Source: Hirsutella rhossiliensis (Eukaryota; Ascomycota; Sordariomycetes; Hypocreales; Ophiocordycipitaceae). Taken from it: 64,000 bases of DNA. The notes beneath the pieces were generated by a model. That model searched no databases, had not been told where the DNA came from, and worked only from the letters and a program-made list of their open reading frames with translations. Below, piece after piece: positions 31,592 to 53,500 of the stretch. The first letter of the stretch is position 1. Every line of letters starts with the position of its first letter. A program made the position numbers and the translations under genes. The DNA is taken from contig NW_025408668.1 in the NCBI RefSeq assembly GCF_020360975.1, positions 7,130,001 through 7,194,000 on the forward strand, in the 5' to 3' direction.

Positions 31592-32957
31592 ATGGGAGGG
31601 ACTGGGTTTCCAGATTTGGATGACAGTGGCTATGGTATCGATCAGGTCACTGGCGAGAGCGACGTCGATAATATTACTCGTTCAATGGCCCGAGGACCTC
31701 GATTCACCTACATAACCTCGATCTCAGGGGCAGAGATTCCTCAGGGCGTATGGGACACTTTGAGCGCCGAGGGTCCTCGGACCCCAAATAACTCGGAGGT
31801 CGAGCCAGCGCACACGCAAAGGAAGTCTCGCGAAAAGCACGATGGAACGGCTCTTCATTCCACTCAAAGCCAAACTCCGTAAGGCTAGGCCAACCACCCA
31901 CAGACGCTTGAGAGCTGCGACTAACAATCAGAGTCGAGCACAGGATCGAATGCAAGGAAGCGGACCACTGGAAACTCCGACTCAAAGAGCTCCTCGCCGA
32001 ATATCGTCCTGGTCAAGTTCGAGCCGAGCAGCGGCTCAAAGTTGCCATTCTGGATTCGGGCATAGACCTCAACCACCCAGGATTTGCTCAGGAAGACCGA
32101 ATAAAGAAGACCAAGAGCTGGGTCGGTGGCAACGTTGACGATACCGACGGCCATGGCACCCATATTGCTGGTCTGATCCTTGAGCTTACCCAGAACGTTG
32201 ACCTTTACATTGCCAAAATCACGACATCGCGGGACCGTCTGGAGAGCCAGGTAGAAAAAATTGCAACGGTAAGTAGGGCATTTGTCCAGCTCTTCGTTTT
32301 CCCGCCGAACATTGAATCCTCTTCTTTCCAGCACTCTTCAGGACCTCGTCCCTAATAATCGTGTTGCAGGCAATCGACTATGCAAGGACGAAATGGAAAG
32401 TCAACATGATGTCGCTTTCCTTTGGCTTCGAGAAACCGGTCGAGAGGATCAAAGTCGAGCTCGACAAATGCATCTGCGACAGCATCATCATTTTCGCCGC
32501 AGCGTCCAACGACTGCGCAAATTCTCCCGCGACATACCCGGCTGCCCACGGACAAATCCTCAGTATTCACTCGGCATCCGCTGGCAAGAGGCATAACTGC
32601 GTTCGCAGTGCGAAAGATGTGGAGTTTGTGACAGTAGGCGAATGTCTCGAGTCATCGTGGCCGTCCCGTGATGGCCAGGTCAAAAAATACATGTCCGGCA
32701 CGTCGTTCGCCACGCCCGTGGCAGTGTCAATTGCGGCATTCATGCTTGGTTATATCGATAGGAACGTACCCAAGCCTCTGTCTCACCGGGACTGGATAGT
32801 ACGACCAAGAAGCTGCGAAGGAATGACGAGAATCTTCAAACTCATGGCTGCAGAGGAACCGAGGGATCATTGTCTCTGGATAAGCCCGCAATTGTACTTT
32901 CAACAGTATGGACAGGACAAGATCAAGGCGGATATAAGTCATGTGCTGAACAGATGA
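31592..32957 (+). CDS. Subtilisin-like S8 serine protease (HET-Q2-like partner of the gasdermin)
   Basis: Exons 31592..31878, 31932..32268 and 32370..32957 give 403 residues; both introns have good sites and keep frame. The S8 domain spans about 125-330 with an intact catalytic set: Asp137 (AILDSGIDLNHP), His170 (DGHGTHIAGL), Asn255 (FAAASNDCAN) and Ser320 (SGTSFATP). There is no signal peptide or prodomain, so it should be cytosolic. The pattern (VGECLESSWPSRD, a C-terminal helix block with CEGMTRIFKLMAA) matches the short intracellular subtilases often found beside fungal gasdermins, such as Podospora HET-Q2. Residues 1-95 are not family-like and may derive from an older neighbouring frame; the true start could be nearer the VEHRIECKEADHW segment. 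It faces the gasdermin gene tail to tail, 316 nt away. Confidence 0.82.
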
Positions 32958-33273
32958 GTTTGGTTTATGAATATTGAGCGGCACGGCCCGGCGTTAACAA
33001 ACAGGTGTGCCAGGCTCATTCATGGAAGCTGTTTTCAAGATGGTGTATCGTACATATTCTCCTGCTATTGTCATGCGTAACTGTCAGCTGCCACCAGCAC
33101 CTCCATGGCAAATAGGGTCCACTTCCAGGTCATCTGTTGGAGTGTCACTTCATTTTTGCCTGCACAACACAGTGGTTTCCTCACAGCAACAAAAACGGTC
33201 AAAAGTTCATGTCATGGACCCGAGCTTGAGATATGCGGTGCTGCAATTGATATCATGGCCCTTCCAGGGGTTG
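32958..33273. other. Convergent spacer between protease and gasdermin genes
   Basis: 316 nt, no gene. It contains one copy of a dispersed repeat whose inverted copy lies at 38174-38276. Confidence 0.7.
33081..33188 (+). repeat. Dispersed repeat, copy A
   Basis: Matches the reverse complement of 38174-38276: a nearly identical block of about 30 nt (CTGTCAGC, CCACCAGCACCTCCATGGCA), then ATAGGGTCC, then TTGCCT and CACAACACAGTGGTTTCC, separated by short indels. It is too long and ordered to be chance. No coding function is seen. Confidence 0.8.
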
Positions 33274-34110
33274 CTACATGCATTCTCCAATGACTGCCAG
33301 TTCCTCGCCGCTGATTTTCTCCAGCATCATGTCCTCGATATGGACTGATTCCTGCCCTTCCTCGGGAGCCTGATATTCAGCTTTGCTGAGAAGCCTGCCT
33401 TTCGGCCTAGGCCCAGCGCTCTTGAGCTTAAGCGTCTGGAAACTGAGCCACCTGGTAGTAACCCGCTTGAGTTCTAGGGCAAATATCTTGCTTCCCTCGG
33501 ACTTGCCACTGAAGATCAGCGAAGCCTTGCCCTCTTCCCCAATGGTGATTCGTGGAGTGCCTGCATTCCCTGCGGGAATCAAAGGAGCGTCAACGGCTTG
33601 ACGCGCAGGAATCTCGACCGTGCCCTTGGTGCCCCTGGCCCGATTATTCTCGACAGACACGTCAACGTCTTCGCATATCATGATGCCGACGACGAGGCAC
33701 ACCGACCACGTGGTGCCGAACTTGATCCAACGGGGCACCCTGGCCCGGACGGCGGCGTCCCGAGACAGCGCCTCCCAGAACCGGTCAAGGCGCTGCAGCC
33801 GCTTCCAGCGGATCCTCTTGCCTTTGAGGTGGACCTCGTCGCTGGTCCTGCCGAAGAAGCTGAAGTCGGCGAGGGACTTGAGCGATGCCACGCCAAACCG
33901 CCCGGCGGTGGTGGCGGTGCTCACGGCGAAGTCAGTGAAGGCGCCTTCGGCGAAGGGCTCGTGGTTGTACTGAAGAGGGTTATCAGGCTCGCGGAAGCTG
34001 GTCGGATTGAGGTATTCCTTGACAATGGCGCCGAGCAGCTTGCCCTCGAAATCGGCCGTCTCCAACCACGCCTGGTACTTGAGCATGACGAACTCAGGGC
34101 CTCCATCCAT
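33274..34110 (-). CDS. Fungal gasdermin-like cell-death protein (HET-Q1/RCD-1 type)
   Basis: A single exon of 278 residues, the length of Podospora HET-Q1. The start MDGGPEFVMLKYQAWLETADFEG, the middle KRIRWKRLQRLDRFWEALS and the strongly conserved CLVVGIMICEDVDVS (about 153-167), followed by a basic stretch and SKIFALELKRVTT (about 210-222), match what I know of the fungal gasdermin family. Fungal gasdermins are pore-forming executors of regulated cell death and allorecognition. A short inhibitory C-terminal tail is removed by a protease, often encoded next door, and the N-terminal part then permeabilises membranes. Here the tail (about 225-278) is charged (QAPEEGQESVHIEDMMLEKISG). The adjacent convergent S8 protease gives the exact context expected. 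There is no signal peptide, transmembrane span or intron. Family assignment is by motif memory, not a search. Confidence 0.75.
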   Translation of the reverse strand: MDGGPEFVMLKYQAWLETADFEGKLLGAIVKEYLNPTSFREPDNPLQYNHEPFAEGAFTDFAVSTATTAGRFGVASLKSLADFSFFGRTSDEVHLKGKRIRWKRLQRLDRFWEALSRDAAVRARVPRWIKFGTTWSVCLVVGIMICEDVDVSVENNRARGTKGTVEIPARQAVDAPLIPAGNAGTPRITIGEEGKASLIFSGKSEGSKIFALELKRVTTRWLSFQTLKLKSAGPRPKGRLLSKAEYQAPEEGQESVHIEDMMLEKISGEELAVIGECM

Positions 34111-36305
34111 GGTCGATGGCGGATCACAACTCCCCTCTCTTCAAGTTGTGGTCTCGTATACTCTACGGATAGAAATCGGCCTTACATGTATCCCACGAGC
34201 TTACTATATCAGTCGCCAGGACGAGGATCTCGAGCACTACGTGGGGAAATGGTGCGTAAGGGTGAGCCTTGTGATGCGTTTGTACGATGATCTTGCTCCG
34301 ATGCCACCCGCACCTCGCCGACCGGTCCATCCCACGCTTGCCGCTGACTGCGGGTAGCCCGCTATCCAAATCCATAACATCCAATACCCGGAAGGGGGGG
34401 TGGCATGATGCCGGGAGCCGTTCAACGACCGGAACAAAGTCATTACTCAGCCTACGGCACGGAAGAGTATTATTGTGACCCCTACAAAGGACGTGTAACC
34501 TGCTGGACGACCCGAGTTCCCGTCAGTGCCGGAGGTGCGTGGTTGTGCGGGCTTCTGAGCCTGAAGTGGCCGGGTACCTCTATCTGGATGGGAAAGATGG
34601 ATAGAAAGTACATGTAAGGGCAAGCTAAGGGGAAAATCGAGGGGTTTCCAGGGCTCTTGGCCCAATGCAAACGCCAGTGCTTGCACACAACGGGAGCTCC
34701 GAACCATGATGGTCTGCACGATCACATGCATCGTCCGCTTTCAGGCGTTTCGACCCGTTTCGTCCTCCGTCAATATTTCTCAACGGCAATTCGAGCCCTG
34801 CTCGCCAGTTCCGACGGCTGACATATTGGTCAACAGAACTCGCAGTGACGCGAACCGGTCCCTTGCCCAGGTTCTCGCCGCATGCCAGTCACAACGAGGA
34901 CCCCGGCGCCACGCTGCGCTGCAGCAACTGCCGTCCATGTAACATCAACGTGGCCGCAATCTAGCCGCCTTCATTCCGTGCATCCTACTGATTTCGGGCA
35001 ACCGAGGTTAAGCTATATGGACAGATGCCGCACGTACCTGGACGCTATTCCGTCTCAGTCAAGACGTATACCGTACGCATTTCTGAAACTTGCAGATTAA
35101 TATACGTGTATGGTTAGAAAGCCTGGATGGAAACCGCTTTCTAATCCTTCGGACAGCCCACCGTCACTCGGCTATAAGTAGAAGCAGAGTTATAATAATG
35201 AAAGGCCACTCCAAACAATCCACCCACCGGCTGCTCGAGTGGGGTGGAGACGGGGTTTACACTCCACTACAAGGGATTTTAACGTTATTGTCATGGTAAA
35301 AACAGTCAATTATAGCAGGCACCTGCAGCACCATCTGCTGGAGTGTGCACTCTACGTTTGGCTAGCAAAATGATGTGACAGTTATCCCACTGTAGTCAGC
35401 TTAGGGCGGCCCTTGTCAAGCGTTTCTGCTGGCTATCCCGCGCGACTTGATTCAAGCCTTATGCAGACGGGCGAAAGTGAGTGCAGTGCACTCGGATAAG
35501 TGCTGCGCAAGTGGGCATTGTGGCCTATTCTGCTGTACTAGGATGCGTCCACCCGCCTGCGGGGATCACGGCGGAAGATGCGTTTCGGCGCTTCTCGGCA
35601 AACTGATTTGCCTTCCGTTACGAATCCATAAGAGATCACCGTTTAGCAGGCAAATATTCATGAACGAGGATTTACATGATCCACACGTATGGAAACCCAA
35701 CCTGGCTTACTCGTGACACACACCCAGTTCTGGACCTGCATTGCCTTCTTTAACTCTAAGCAGAGATGGGCCAGGTTGGTGCTGGTTGAATGATAAACCT
35801 GTGCCTGCGGATCCTATCCGCGCAAGTTAATAACCATATTCGTACGACAGGGCCATCATTAATAGAAGGGAAGTGGGTGTGGCCCTTGCGTATTTTGTTT
35901 CCTTGCATAATTTGTTTCGTCTTGTAAAAGGCCAAACCCAGTTCAAATGTATCAGAATGGTGCAAATGGCCTCTTTTCTGTCTGCTCTGGACAATAAATA
36001 GATACAACGTGACCGACTTCGCGAGCAATACGGTAGCTAAAATCAATGCGTAGTGGGATATTCTTCTCTATGACAGGTCATGGTCCTAGAAACTCGATAT
36101 GCGAGATTTATGCGAATTGAATGCCCTAGAGTCATGCAAGAATCCCGAGCATGCACCTCAGCTTGCTCGAGTGGACGATATATAAATCATAAAGGGGAGG
36201 CTTCACCCGCTGACCATGTTAAATGATCACTTGTGCAACCATTTCTCCGAAGATCTTTAGATGCGCAGTGCAATCTTATACTCCAACTACGCAACAAGGA
36301 GCACA
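34111..36305. other. 2.2-kb intergenic region, gasdermin promoter side
   Basis: No frame longer than about 95 codons and none with a domain. The last 150 nt before 36306 contain a TATATAAA-like box (36178-36185) suited to the secreted-protein gene. Confidence 0.5.
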
Positions 36306-37193
36306 ATGAAGGTCACGTTGGCAACAATCGCAATCTATCTGACGGCACTTGGTCTGGCTCAGGACTCGGCTGAGTCGCCGGAAAGGGGCTGGGCTGCTCA
36401 TTTCTCCTGGTCATTTGATCAATTTATAGCCGACGGGCTTGAACAAGTCTCGTTTCCCATGAACATGGCTAATGCGAATCACGACGACGGCTTCTACTTT
36501 GCGCAGCAGTTCAATTTCGAAGACATCACAGACATAGGTTATATTGGCCTACAGCCGAGAAAGGACAACAACAGCGTGAGCATGATCCACGCAGCATTTT
36601 CGTCGTTTCAAAACGGCACAACGACTTCCAACAAGAACTGCACCGAAGGTGCTGATGGCGGACCCGGTATTAGTTGCGCTATTGATATTAGTGGGGACTA
36701 TAACCAAACATATACTCTCGACGTTGAACGCGTTGAATCAACTACGTGGAGAGGACTCTTGATCAATACTGCTACGAACGAAAGCCATGAAATCGGCGTG
36801 TGGACGTTACCTTCCCGCGCTGGGAAGATCCGTGGCAAAGGGGGATCGGGCTTTGTCGAGTATTACCACTGGAATGTCGAAGGATCGGGGCAGAACTGCG
36901 AAGCCTTGCCCAGGACGGAGGTTACATTTAGTATCCCCACATCCAAAGACGCCGAAAGGGGCTCACTACGGCCCACAACCGAGTCCGGACCGTGCAAGGG
37001 CCTTGTTGCATTACAGAAAAGCCAAGTTCCCGACGGGTGGCATTTTGCGGCGGGATTTCAAAACGGCACAAACGAGGCCGCCACCAAGATCCACATAGAT
37101 GCGGCAACCCAGAAGCTGATTGATGAGTACTCAAAAAAGGCGTACGAGGAATGGATCAAGGAGCACCCAGAAGAGGCACAAGGGCAAAATTGA
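36306..37193 (+). CDS. Secreted DUF3472-like protein
   Basis: A single exon of 295 residues. The chosen ATG starts a clear signal peptide (MKVTLATIAIYLTALGLAQ, cut near 19); 15 codons upstream are open but start from a second ATG that would spoil it. The mature part is beta-rich, with WAAHFSWSF, FYFAQQFNFEDITDIGYIGLQP, FSSFQNG and EYYHWNVEGSGQNCEALPRTEV, a pattern like DUF3472 (a galectin-like fold in bacterial and fungal secreted proteins). Four Cys (NCTEG, ISCAID, NCEALP, GPCKGL) could form two disulfides, and there are several N-glycosylation sequons. The biochemical role is unknown; carbohydrate binding is the usual guess. The C-terminus is a charged helix. It stands alone between the gasdermin and the zinc-finger gene. 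Confidence 0.7.
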   Translation: MKVTLATIAIYLTALGLAQDSAESPERGWAAHFSWSFDQFIADGLEQVSFPMNMANANHDDGFYFAQQFNFEDITDIGYIGLQPRKDNNSVSMIHAAFSSFQNGTTTSNKNCTEGADGGPGISCAIDISGDYNQTYTLDVERVESTTWRGLLINTATNESHEIGVWTLPSRAGKIRGKGGSGFVEYYHWNVEGSGQNCEALPRTEVTFSIPTSKDAERGSLRPTTESGPCKGLVALQKSQVPDGWHFAAGFQNGTNEAATKIHIDAATQKLIDEYSKKAYEEWIKEHPEEAQGQN

Positions 37194-38173: not shown

Positions 38174-38276
38174 CTGTCGGGAAACCACTGTGTTGTGTAG
38201 GCAAGAGTTGACAGCAAGTGACCCGGAAGGGGACCCTATATGTATATGCCATGGAGGTGCTGGTGGCTGCTGACAG
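38174..38276 (-). repeat. Dispersed repeat, copy B (inverted relative to copy A)
   Basis: Its reverse complement matches 33081-33188. The two copies flank the gasdermin and DUF3472-like genes in opposite orientation, about 5 kb apart. Confidence 0.8.
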
Positions 38277-44082: not shown

Positions 44083-48093
<4,011 letters not shown>

Positions 48094-49204: not shown

Positions 49205-50569
49205 TCATTGCTCCTGAATGACATGAGCCTTAACCTTTTCAAGTATTTTCTCCATCTCCGACGAGTCGCTTCCCCCGACCGTCAGAAACCCGTGGCTGAG
49301 CCGCATCGACTCGCCGTGCGTCCAGCCAGTAATGATCAGGCTGCCATCTCGGATTTCATCGGCAAAGGCCTCTTCAAATGCGGCCCTCGGACATGTAAAG
49401 TACTCCAAAACCACGGCGGCTTTGCTTAGTCCTCGTTGCGCAAAGTGATTCGTGAGGGGTCCCAGGTGATAAGTCCCCATGACGCGGGCGTTGAGGTCAA
49501 CAATGAAGTGCTCGCCGGAGGCGTTGGTGATGACGTCTAGTCCAACGGGCCCGTAGTAGCCTTTCCGATGCAGACACCGGGCAACCTCTTCCGTGAGCCC
49601 GTCAAACTTTTGCTGCAGGGCCGCCTGGCCTTGATACGAGATGGAGCCTCCGACCCAATGGCCCCGTTTGTTAAACTGCTGTTCACAACAGGCGATGAAG
49701 ATTCCACGCCCCTTGCGCGTCACAAAGATCGACAGCCCAACCGCCGCTCCTGGAATGTAGTCCTGCAAGACGAGAGAGCATGGATACAGGTGAAGATTGG
49801 CGCTGTGGATTTCCGCGAGCATCTCCTGGAGCTGGACGCCGAGCAGCCCCTTCACATGTGCCCGGTCGTCCTCGGAGGACACGAAAAAGACTCCCTTTCC
49901 CGACACGGTCTGGGGAAGCTTGGCAACAAAGGATGCTGCGTACGTGTCGAGTGACGCAGTCATATGGGCAATCTCTGACTCGAGGCGGGTAGAGTTGTGG
50001 ATGCAATCTGGCTGAAGGAGAGGATCGATGACCGCTGAAGGCGGCGTTGGTAGTCCGGCAAGGGCTAACCAGCGCTTCGATAGAATCTCGTAGTGTATAA
50101 CCGGGTCTATGAGATGGGGCAGATGCGATACGCAATCGGAAGGCATTGCGATGGCGACGGGGCTCCCAGGCTTCAGGGGAACTTGGCTGGGGTCTGTGGT
50201 AAAGCTCACCGTGGGCCGTTGATCGTGCCGTAGCCGCGAGAAGGTGAGGCTAATGTCAACTTTGTTCATGAAGCCGATATCGGGCTCGATTTGGGTGACC
50301 TCCAAGTCGAGTACGACCATTGGCATCTTGCCAGCCATGAACCCATGTCGCTGGGGGAGGATCTTGAGTGCCAGCGCCAGCCAGGAGTTATCGACTGTCT
50401 CCGCCGTCCGCAGCCCATAGTGGTAGATGAACTTTTTCGGTGAGAATGCAGCACAGTCCTTGGCCTCTACAGGACAGAAGGCCAAGGTCGGGTAGGATTC
50501 GTCTTCGTTGTCGATGTCGTACAGGTCACGCAGCGTGTAATCAAGCTTAATCGGAGCGCTGGTGCACAT
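49205..50569 (-). CDS. ATP-grasp ligase
   Basis: A single exon, 454 residues from the first ATG (MCTSAPIKLDYTLRDLYDID); family members are usually longer at the N-terminus, so an upstream exon may be missing (a frame at 50868-50700 contains a promising TKTGAPLLLFTTLPGL-like segment, but I found no clean splice). The ATP-grasp fold shows SKRWLALAGLPTPPSAVID (lid), SFVAKLPQTVSGKGVFFV, SLVLQDYIPGAAVGLSIFV, KGYYGPVGLDVI and the metal-binding HFIVDLNARVMGTYHLGPL. These enzymes activate a carboxylate as an acyl phosphate and join it to an amine. In fungi, stand-alone members sit in small natural-product loci. With the convergent C-methyltransferase as neighbour, an amide made from a beta-methylated amino acid is a reasonable guess, but it is inference. 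Confidence 0.72.
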   Translation of the reverse strand: MCTSAPIKLDYTLRDLYDIDNEDESYPTLAFCPVEAKDCAAFSPKKFIYHYGLRTAETVDNSWLALALKILPQRHGFMAGKMPMVVLDLEVTQIEPDIGFMNKVDISLTFSRLRHDQRPTVSFTTDPSQVPLKPGSPVAIAMPSDCVSHLPHLIDPVIHYEILSKRWLALAGLPTPPSAVIDPLLQPDCIHNSTRLESEIAHMTASLDTYAASFVAKLPQTVSGKGVFFVSSEDDRAHVKGLLGVQLQEMLAEIHSANLHLYPCSLVLQDYIPGAAVGLSIFVTRKGRGIFIACCEQQFNKRGHWVGGSISYQGQAALQQKFDGLTEEVARCLHRKGYYGPVGLDVITNASGEHFIVDLNARVMGTYHLGPLTNHFAQRGLSKAAVVLEYFTCPRAAFEEAFADEIRDGSLIITGWTHGESMRLSHGFLTVGGSDSSEMEKILEKVKAHVIQEQ

Positions 50570-53500
50570 GTTGCCGACTTCACTTCGGTGAGGTGAAGCG
50601 TCAAAAGAGCGAATTGTTACATGGGTCAAACAATCTTTATCCAAGTCCCTAGCGAGGAGATCGCAGGGGTACGCACGACCGCAGTCAGGCCGGGCAAAGT
50701 GGTGAAGAGTAGCAAGGGGGCGCCAGTCTTCGAACGGTTGTTGGGTGAAAGGTGTACGACATCAAAAACCTGATCGAATCGGAGCATCATCCTGGTACAG
50801 ATTGCCCGAAAGCCTGCCCAGGGCACACAGGTAGCACGACGATGCCACATCTCCAACCCCTGCATCATACAGTTGCCTGAGCATGATGCATACGGGTAAA
50901 CATGTGGCTTTCTCGGAATCCTTTATGTCATGGCAGAAGTCGTTTGTCGTCGAAGCTTTACACATCTCCCTGGTAGGGTGTACACGGATGAACCGCGATG
51001 GTTTCAGGACAAACAGACGAAATATGGAGCGCCTCCCGACAGAGAGGCTTGACGTGAAGATGGATGATGGCTGGCTGAATACTAATCTTCAGCCAATGAG
51101 CCCACGGGATTTCCACAGGATGCGGCAACATCACACGTAATATTAATAGGGCAATAATTCGTTCATCCTTCGTGCATGTGTACTATGGCTGAATCCTACT
51201 TGCTGATCTCGAGTGATACACCACACGATCCAGGCCAACCAGACCACGACACGATCCATCTCAGCGCAGCGACGGGCCGTCCGCTTCTCTGAGCATCATC
51301 TCCGCTGTCGTCGTTTATCACGTATGACAATCACGCAATGAGACGGGCCGAGGACAACCGCATCGAGTCTCCCCACGCGCCCCGTTTCAGCCATAAAATG
51401 CTGTTCGACGCCTGCAGGGAGGTAGGTATACGGCAAACAACATAAATGCGGTACCTCATCCTGGGCTTTGACTCAGTGCTCTACGTCTGTGGTCCCCGTT
51501 CACACGCGGTCATGATGGAGACGGTGGGCTCAAAGGCGGCGGAATGTTGCCGAAGCCCATCCAGCCACAGGTTCACAAATGCTGTGCCTCGCGCACTACT
51601 TCGTACAAGCCGTCTTCTGGGTCATGACCAAGTGGAGAAAATAGCACAGAGGAATCATGAGGCGAGGCCTGAGCGCGCTGGGAAATATCGAGTGATGCAT
51701 GCGCCGTTGGCCAAATAGAGATTCGATCTTGGGCAATAGTAGTGCTCGAGATAAAACTCTGTGAGACTGGCTGGCCAGCGAGGATTATGAACAACCAGGT
51801 GAGGGTAAAGGACGAGCCATAAGGGACTCGACCTCAGGCGATCTCCTAGAACTCAAAGACAAAGGAAAGACTGTCTTCGCACATTTCTTCTCGCATATCT
51901 CGCATCCTGTCATGAACAATTAGAAGCTGACTTTGCATAGAACAGGCACATGCAGTCGAAAGACTTGTAATGGGTAAGTAGAGCAATTCTCACCGTAGAT
52001 GAGCAGGATGGGCCATGAAATTGCCATGGTGTTCAAAACTTGCAAAGCAAACAACAATACCCAAATCGAATCCCTTTGTTCGCGCCATGTCTCTGTCTGG
52101 TCCAAGCTCGAGAGATACGATGTCTAAGACGGACAAGACTGAACTTAGCCTGCAAAGCTTTTATTGTTACTTATCAAAAGAGTGCCGAGGCGGCGTCGCA
52201 CCTGGAATCTCTTCTTTTAGTTGTTGAGATAGCCTGATAAAAGTCTGTTTTCGTTCCTCCGTTATACCTGGCTTGAGGCGATTCAAGACTTTTAGCCTTC
52301 CTTGTATATCCAACTTTGGGCCCCTTCATTGCTGCTGCAATACTTTGTTTATGTTGAGGCATAGTCTTACCTACTCGATAGACTGGCATTTTGAGTATTC
52401 AGACTGCGACAGCTTTTCGCAAAGTCAGGGCGATCAGTAATAGCGGTCTCGACAAAGGCGAATCGGGCATTCATAAAGCCACAGAGTTTCGGAGCGTGAG
52501 CCAACAGGAGTACCCCAAGAATGGTTCCAAGGGCAGTAAGATGTTCTGGTCACGCGTAGAGGTAGGGCATGTATTCACCAGAGAATCAATGGCCGTTCGA
52601 CCACGTCCACCACGGAGGGGAAAGGCCCTTCTATATACAGGGCCAAAGCCGAAGATTGGTCCATAGTGTTCACTGCACGCCCCTCTTTTAATGTAGAGGT
52701 CACTGCTAATAGGTCGCAGAACTGGGTCTGCTGCATCGTACAAGCCGGTCTATTGGTGGCGCTCAACGTGCCCGATGCGAGCGGGCAGATGACGAGGACT
52801 GAGACTAACGGTGGTGGGTGAACATTGGCGAAAACTTGCCGTTATGCAAGTGGCGAATTGCAGACTGTGACCTGATTCTTCAATACGAGTGCCTGCACTG
52901 CATTCTTGTGCGTCCACATATGAGGAGCTGGCATGTGCCCTCTACAGGCCGGGGCCGTCTTACCACCCACCCACCACACGAACAGATCGAAATGCCTGAA
53001 GTGCTACATTTTAGAACAATGCCTATGAAGTGTGATCATTATATGTCAAGGGTTATCCTGATTAATATGGGAAACGAGACCTCTGTATCAAGCGTTTTGT
53101 TAAAGATGGGCTAGAACACGCCCTCGTGCTGTTGCATCACATAGCAAAGTAAACTTTAAGAGAGTGGTAGAATGACAACTGATCTTTTGCAACTAGTCTT
53201 TTTGAAAGTACCGGGTAATCTGCAGTATTGACCATTGCAGCGAGACTACTCACCCGAAAGATGCAGATGTGAATCAATACTTGCCACTTCTCAGCTTGCA
53301 AACTCAACTCGCGCTCCAGTCATGACTTTGCCAGCAATGCGACATGGGATTTAGCCGGCTTTGCGATAGAATTCAGAGCAATGTCATAAGAGAACCGCGT
53401 GAACCGTTTTCTGACTTACTAAGGAGTCTGTTTCACAATGCATCTCGGGAACCAGATTTCCATTCCCATATATACTGCCTTGTATTTGCCTTGTGCTATT

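Follow-up and report, generated by a model that had tools for sequence, protein, structure and literature searches.

A probable protease-activated gasdermin pair in the nematode parasite Hirsutella rhossiliensis, and a second gasdermin–protease pair in the same genome

Do a subtilase (S8 protease) gene and a gasdermin gene that lie tail to tail in the genome of the nematode parasite Hirsutella rhossiliensis (order Hypocreales) act together as a cell-death unit, and if so, for what purpose? Both genes lie within a window of 64,000 nucleotides, the whole stretch of DNA analyzed here (C2:7130001-7194000; contig C2, 8,442,910 bp, of an 81.8-Mb genome). The results described below indicate that the locus is probably a two-gene fungal pyroptosis-like unit, in which a protease activates a gasdermin.

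The protease gene (31592-32957, plus strand; 403 aa) consists of three exons and two GT-AG introns, and the gasdermin gene (33274-34110, minus strand; 278 aa) is an uninterrupted single exon. The stop codons are separated by 316 nt, i.e. the gasdermin gene is less than 10 kb from the protease gene. The coordinates, sizes, residues, motifs, and tail-to-tail spacing given in an earlier note on this DNA were exact upon re-reading of the sequence. The features of the locus are as follows.

31592..31878, plus strand: protease exon 1 (residues 1 to ~96); start and exon match the database model P0017
31879..31931, plus strand: protease intron 1, GT-AG; the P0017 acceptor lies 12 nt further on
31932..32268, plus strand: protease exon 2, encoding the catalytic residues D137 and H170 (Pfam and conservation)
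32269..32369, plus strand: protease intron 2, GT-AG; identical junction in P0017
32370..32957, plus strand: protease exon 3, with N255, S320, and a C-terminus similar to those of relatives, absent from the 356-aa model
32958..33273: 316-nt spacer between the stop codons, with a dispersed repeat copy at ~33077-33193
33274..34110, minus strand: gasdermin gene, 278 aa, single exon (fold, profile, and family)
33340..33414, minus strand: linker, residues 233-257, putative cleavage region (conservation and model disorder)
33277..33339, minus strand: C-terminal tail, residues 258-278, putative inhibitory tail (conservation and model)

Both gene models differ from the deposited records. The deposited gasdermin (P0001, HRG_02526, 260 aa) corresponds to the window protein minus 18 residues, and the deposited protease (P0017, 356 aa) has a shortened end. 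The 18-residue gap is unlikely to be a real intron, as the stretch is present in most of 17 aligned rows; it is missing also in P0012 and partly in P0014 and P0016. The shortened end of P0017 is also unlikely, as the longer C-terminus resembles those of relatives, such as P0018. Because the stretches omitted from the two records resemble relatives, the alignments suggest that the 278- and 403-aa models are better than the deposited ones.

The 278-aa protein is almost certainly a gasdermin. Its predicted structure contains the gasdermin core fold, and the top structural match of this model was RCD-1 of Neurospora crassa (166 residues, 10% identity). When sequence profiles were compared with the PDB at E values up to 10, RCD-1-2 was the only match (E 0.1 and 1 with the 17-row profile, 0.029 and 0.11 with the 63-row profile); no Pfam match was observed. 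The gasdermin identity proposed in the earlier note is supported by the predicted fold and, weakly but specifically, by the sequence profile. The motifs on which that proposal relied, CLVVGIMICEDVDVS and SKIFALELK, are both present and fall within conserved regions of the family, and G142, M144, and I209 are identical in 63 of 63 gasdermin-family rows. The frame is not a chance open reading frame (ORF), as it has 15 protein matches besides its own record (E 9e-66 to 8e-22) and the profile search with the gasdermin family returned at least 86 rows, with 8000 candidates scored. A genome search for further copies returned the window gasdermin alone, and no relatives were found in viral contigs (eight pattern matches, none confirmed) or in plasmids.

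In the 63-row tree, five branches were flagged as long, among them that of the window gasdermin (0.82, compared to a median of 0.17). It nevertheless keeps 44 of the 48 strongly conserved family positions, and at least 12 other rows depart from more of them. The locus had been expected to be fast-evolving, which agrees with the long branch but not with the change of only four strongly conserved positions.

For the protease, the S8 domain (PF00082, E 1.6e-19) was the sole Pfam match. Among the 65 rows listed at E values up to 1e-10, one of which is the deposited record P0017 of this gene, the catalytic residues are conserved in nearly every row that has a residue at the position (D137 in 56/57, H170 in 61/61, N255 in 64/65, and S320 in 64/64). 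These results confirm an S8 protease with an intact Asp137/His170/Asn255/Ser320 set. No signal peptide was recognized by inspection, in agreement with the earlier note; the maximum Kyte–Doolittle mean of the 11-residue stretches starting in the first 60 residues was 0.65. At 27 of the 30 positions that are strongly conserved, the window protease agrees with its family, departing at 271, 281, and 285. Residues 1-100 have no clear counterpart among the listed relatives other than P0017, and the matches start at ~101, or at 68 in a single weak case (P0025, E 0.007); within exon 1, homology to the 65 relatives is thus weak and confined to the part from ~66-68 onward. The top match after its own record was P0018 of Fusarium decemcellulare, which carries a DUF7580 domain.

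The C-terminal part of the gasdermin was compared among 63 rows, including that of the window. The conserved end comprises G233 (57 rows), P234 (56), the near-invariant R239 (60), and L240 (47). After position 240, most relatives have an acidic stretch, which is less acidic in the window gasdermin, and conservation reappears in the tail at D260 (43), L at position 261 (46 rows, with M in the window gasdermin), and L263 (46). In the second predicted model, the pLDDT (predicted local distance difference test) values are below 50 at 240-245 and 247-252, followed by one strand (261-265) and one helix (268-276). Conservation and the second model together indicate that a flexible linker joins the gasdermin core to a short C-terminal tail, which is partly ordered and presumably inhibitory. 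HET-Q1, likewise of 278 aa, reportedly loses 40 residues through cleavage at F238 (PMC10989679). By analogy, cleavage of the window gasdermin would be expected within residues 235-250.

From this anatomy, and by analogy with HET-Q1, regulated cell death through cleavage of the tail is a reasonable inference. The tail would hold the gasdermin core inactive until the protease is triggered and severs the linker near residue 239. In line with reports on HET-Q1/HET-Q2, the freed core would then enter the plasma membrane and oligomerize into pores, killing the cell or the hyphal compartment. The computations cover the fold, the catalytic residues, the anatomy of the tail, and recurrence, whereas activation, pore, and death are modeled on HET-Q1/HET-Q2 and on the TPR-CHAT protease (PMC12881547). 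Since both genes are present in one genome, the protease would normally have to be off or unexpressed. The first 100 residues of the protease, tight expression, and a regulator not linked to the locus are the candidate brakes.

The pairing of the two families was also sought in other fungi, by comparing the sizes of the longest contigs for the rows in which these reached at least 10 kb (41 of 86 gasdermin rows and 35 of 65 protease rows). Four exact size matches were shared by gasdermin and protease rows, and no pair differed by 1-50 bp. The matches are 379,411 bp in Penicillium glandicola (gasdermin P0013, protease P0024; DUF7580 present), 66,229 bp (P0135 and P0019; no DUF7580), 17,525 bp (P0106 and P0031; no DUF7580), and 1,616,366 bp in Neocucurbitaria cava (P0115 and P0075; DUF7580 present). 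The genes of the N. cava pair, N0V83_005806 and N0V83_005805, have consecutive locus tags. P0099 and P0038, both on 1,786-bp contigs, come from different sources and were set aside. The gasdermin record of the window is itself among the unmatched ones, its protease record listing another, longer contig; since this pair stays unmatched, the approach misses much.

Four other regions of this genome that contain a protease, each of 9.9 kb (L021-L024), were also examined. In L022 (C5:4171500-4181400), the ORF L022:1688-2302 matches RCD-1-1 (E 1.5e-23) and lies ~1.1 kb from ORFs for DUF7580 and S8 on the opposite strand, head to head. This second gasdermin–protease pair (L022:1237-5506, C5 ~4172736-4177005) came from looking beside proteases; the gasdermin-family profile merely hinted at the ORF (E 0.47), and a genome search with the ORF returned itself alone. 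An adjoining ORF may be its other exon. In total, a gasdermin neighbor was observed in two of the five protease regions examined, window included. In L021 (C5:1788500-1798400), the DUF7580 and S8 ORFs stand beside ORFs for NACHT and many ankyrin repeats, resembling a NOD-like receptor (NLR). The second pair and, indirectly, the four size matches support the recurrence of the protease–gasdermin pairing anticipated in the earlier note.

These observations bear on whether the two genes of the window are accidental neighbors, namely a gasdermin that is controlled otherwise, as RCD-1 is, beside an unrelated intracellular subtilase. RCD-1 is reported to act without proteolytic cleavage (PMC12881547). 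No gasdermin was detected nearby in three of the four other protease regions of the genome, and a protease match was missing for 37 of the 41 long gasdermin contigs. Arguing for a relationship between the two genes are the four exact matches (all on long contigs, the N. cava pair also with consecutive locus tags), the second pair in the genome, and a tail and linker with a near-invariant Arg at the expected cleavage region. We consider accidental proximity very unlikely, and the window protease likely to be the activator of the window gasdermin.

The presence of a sensor domain on the protease was addressed by searching for DUF7580 (PF24476). Precomputed calls of this domain exist for 14 of the 65 protease relatives, P0018 among them. 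A profile made from these 14 detected it at E <1e-3 in 16 of the 65 rows (adding P0041 and P0024), whereas the remaining 49, many of which are short records, had none at this threshold; in the window protease, DUF7580 was not detected with this profile (E 0.21). With a second profile, built from 19 relatives and covering their N-terminal regions, DUF7580 was detected in three of the four other protease regions (L021, E 1.5e-16; L023, 3.6e-13; L022, 4.7e-12) but not in L024, and the best hit in the 64-kb window had an E value of 0.73. When the window protease was scanned alone with these 19 rows, residues 1-130 were hit with 9.2 bits (E 4.7e-5, the database being a single sequence); we read this hit as the helix preceding the S8 domain and not as DUF7580.

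Upstream exons encoding a sensor were rejected for DUF7580 on the basis of tblastn, the profiles, and Pfam searches. In the best 40 rows of a tblastn search with the 65 relatives against the window, only P0017 exon 1 and matches with E values of 0.005 or higher fell outside 31850-33000, and no run of matches was observed upstream of the protease gene. None of 10 upstream ORFs gave a Pfam match above the cut-off (best E 0.067). A sensor of another, unrecognized kind may nevertheless exist. In the literature searched, no mention of DUF7580 was found, and a search for gasdermin with Hirsutella gave nothing on fungal gasdermins by title and start of abstract.

Several results weigh against a protease-activated unit. 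The protease has no sensor or repeat domain recognized by Pfam or the DUF7580 profiles, and two of its conserved positions are altered (K281 and C285). The sequence tie of the gasdermin to known gasdermins is weak alone (best E 0.029), and the first structure model had no Foldseek match at E 0.001 or better. In addition, the gasdermin-family profile found no gasdermin in the 9.9 kb of L021, L023, or L024 and nearly missed that of L022, and size matches were missing for the 37 gasdermin contigs mentioned above.

The altered positions 281 and 285 and the long gasdermin branch, together with the absence of DUF7580 from the protease and the window and its presence in three of the four other regions of the genome, would be in keeping with a relic, whose protease drifts after the loss of its regulatory domain. 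However, both genes have open frames, the protease retains all of its catalytic residues, and the strongly conserved positions are largely kept (27/30 in the protease and 44/48 in the gasdermin). Furthermore, the 49 relatives without DUF7580 at E <1e-3, though many are short records, share the condition of the window protease. We hold a relic to be quite unlikely.

A further proposal is that the protease is a gasdermin activator that shed DUF7580 and is restrained by a new, lineage-specific N-terminal segment of ~100 residues, which would let a HET-Q2-like killer and its HET-Q1-like target share a genome. We consider this improbable: DUF7580 is detectable in only 16 of the 65 relatives and in two of the four same-size-contig proteases, so a bare protease may not be special, although many of the records are short. 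If true, the proposal would place the window pair midway between clusters with multidomain sensors and the het-Q incompatibility pair, whose protease is bare. Both states, domain-bearing (C5) and bare (window), would then exist in this fungus in two separate gasdermin lineages, and the proposed origin of incompatibility systems from defense pathways would become directly testable.

With regard to purpose, the earlier note had suggested allorecognition. At a heterokaryon-incompatibility locus, alleles or idiomorphs would vary by strain, and after hyphal fusion the protease of one strain would cut the gasdermin of the other. The sizes of the two proteins are near those reported for HET-Q1 (278 aa) and HET-Q2 (388 aa) (PMC10989679), which, together with the protease devoid of a recognized sensor domain and the long branch in the gasdermin tree, is consistent with such a locus. 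Conversely, both genes are present in one genome, whereas het-Q1 and het-Q2 are described as idiomorphs, i.e. as distinct genes that occupy a single locus (PMC12881547). In addition, an identical 356-aa protease record is found on two contigs, the longest of which is 12.5 Mb; as this exceeds C1, the longest contig of this genome seen, the same protease appears to be present in a second assembly. Allorecognition receives no support here. We consider an incompatibility locus unlikely and heterokaryon incompatibility a doubtful purpose, defense or stress sensing being more likely.

The surroundings of the pair differ in composition from the rest of the window. The GC content is 0.53 over 26-59 kb, compared to 0.59 and 0.60 in the flanks. 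The flanks encode CHL4/CENP-N, ribonucleotide reductase, and a DENN protein, and the low-GC stretch contains C2H2 zinc-finger, O-methyltransferase-like, and ATP-grasp ORFs and a lipase-like fragment; we would call this stretch an accessory, AT-richer region. The ~115-bp dispersed repeat in the spacer (33077-33193) has at least 41 other matches in the genome at 84-95% identity, and a copy of 76% identity lies at 38174-38276. A different dispersed repeat of ~100 bp (35286-35385) has 20 other genome matches listed, at 75-91% identity. The previous description of an island of decayed genes and repeats is only partly supported. The lower GC content and the short dispersed repeats fit it, but 29.0-31.5 kb matched nothing else in the genome, and the stretch contains several long, open ORFs. 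The O-methyltransferase-like ORF (47017-48090, plus strand) and the ATP-grasp ORF (49208-50761, minus strand), ~1.1 kb apart, are perhaps part of a small biosynthetic cluster. A 310-aa open frame (36261-37190) has no Pfam match and, by eye, a signal-peptide-like start; its product is possibly secreted.

Among known systems, HET-Q1/HET-Q2 of Podospora anserina resembles the window pair in its 278-aa gasdermin with a short tail and in its S8 protease of similar size (388 aa, compared to 403 aa in the window), which is described without an extra domain (PMC10989679). Judged by this published description, the linker motif of the window gasdermin adjoins the reported P1 position of HET-Q1, F238. 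The two systems differ in that a single locus holds either het-Q1 or het-Q2 as idiomorphs (PMC12881547), whereas the window genes are adjacent in one genome. In this respect the window pair is similar to the fungal two-gene clusters (Q2-L: S8 or CHAT, often with WD40, ANK, TPR, or NLR), in which a gasdermin adjoins an intracellular protease in one genome; most of these clustered proteases are reported to be multidomain sensors. The C5 pair is of this kind, with DUF7580, whereas the window protease has no recognized sensor or repeat domain, such domains being common in Q2-L but not obligatory. The window pair is therefore arranged like the sensor/executioner clusters, with a protease as bare as HET-Q2.

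RCD-1 of N. crassa is both the best structural match and the only PDB sequence match of the window gasdermin, but is reported to act by the co-existence of two allelic variants and not by cleavage (PMC12881547). The bacterial gasdermin–protease operons differ in being bacterial and anti-phage and in being kept inactive partly via a buried lipid (PMC10989679). The stimuli that activate the putative sensors of the fungal clusters are described as a major open question (PMC12881547). Fungal gasdermin–protease clusters are already known, and the window adds an intact, uncharacterized pair. With a DUF7580-bearing and a DUF7580-free protease pair in one genome, their comparison could show the role of the extra domain.
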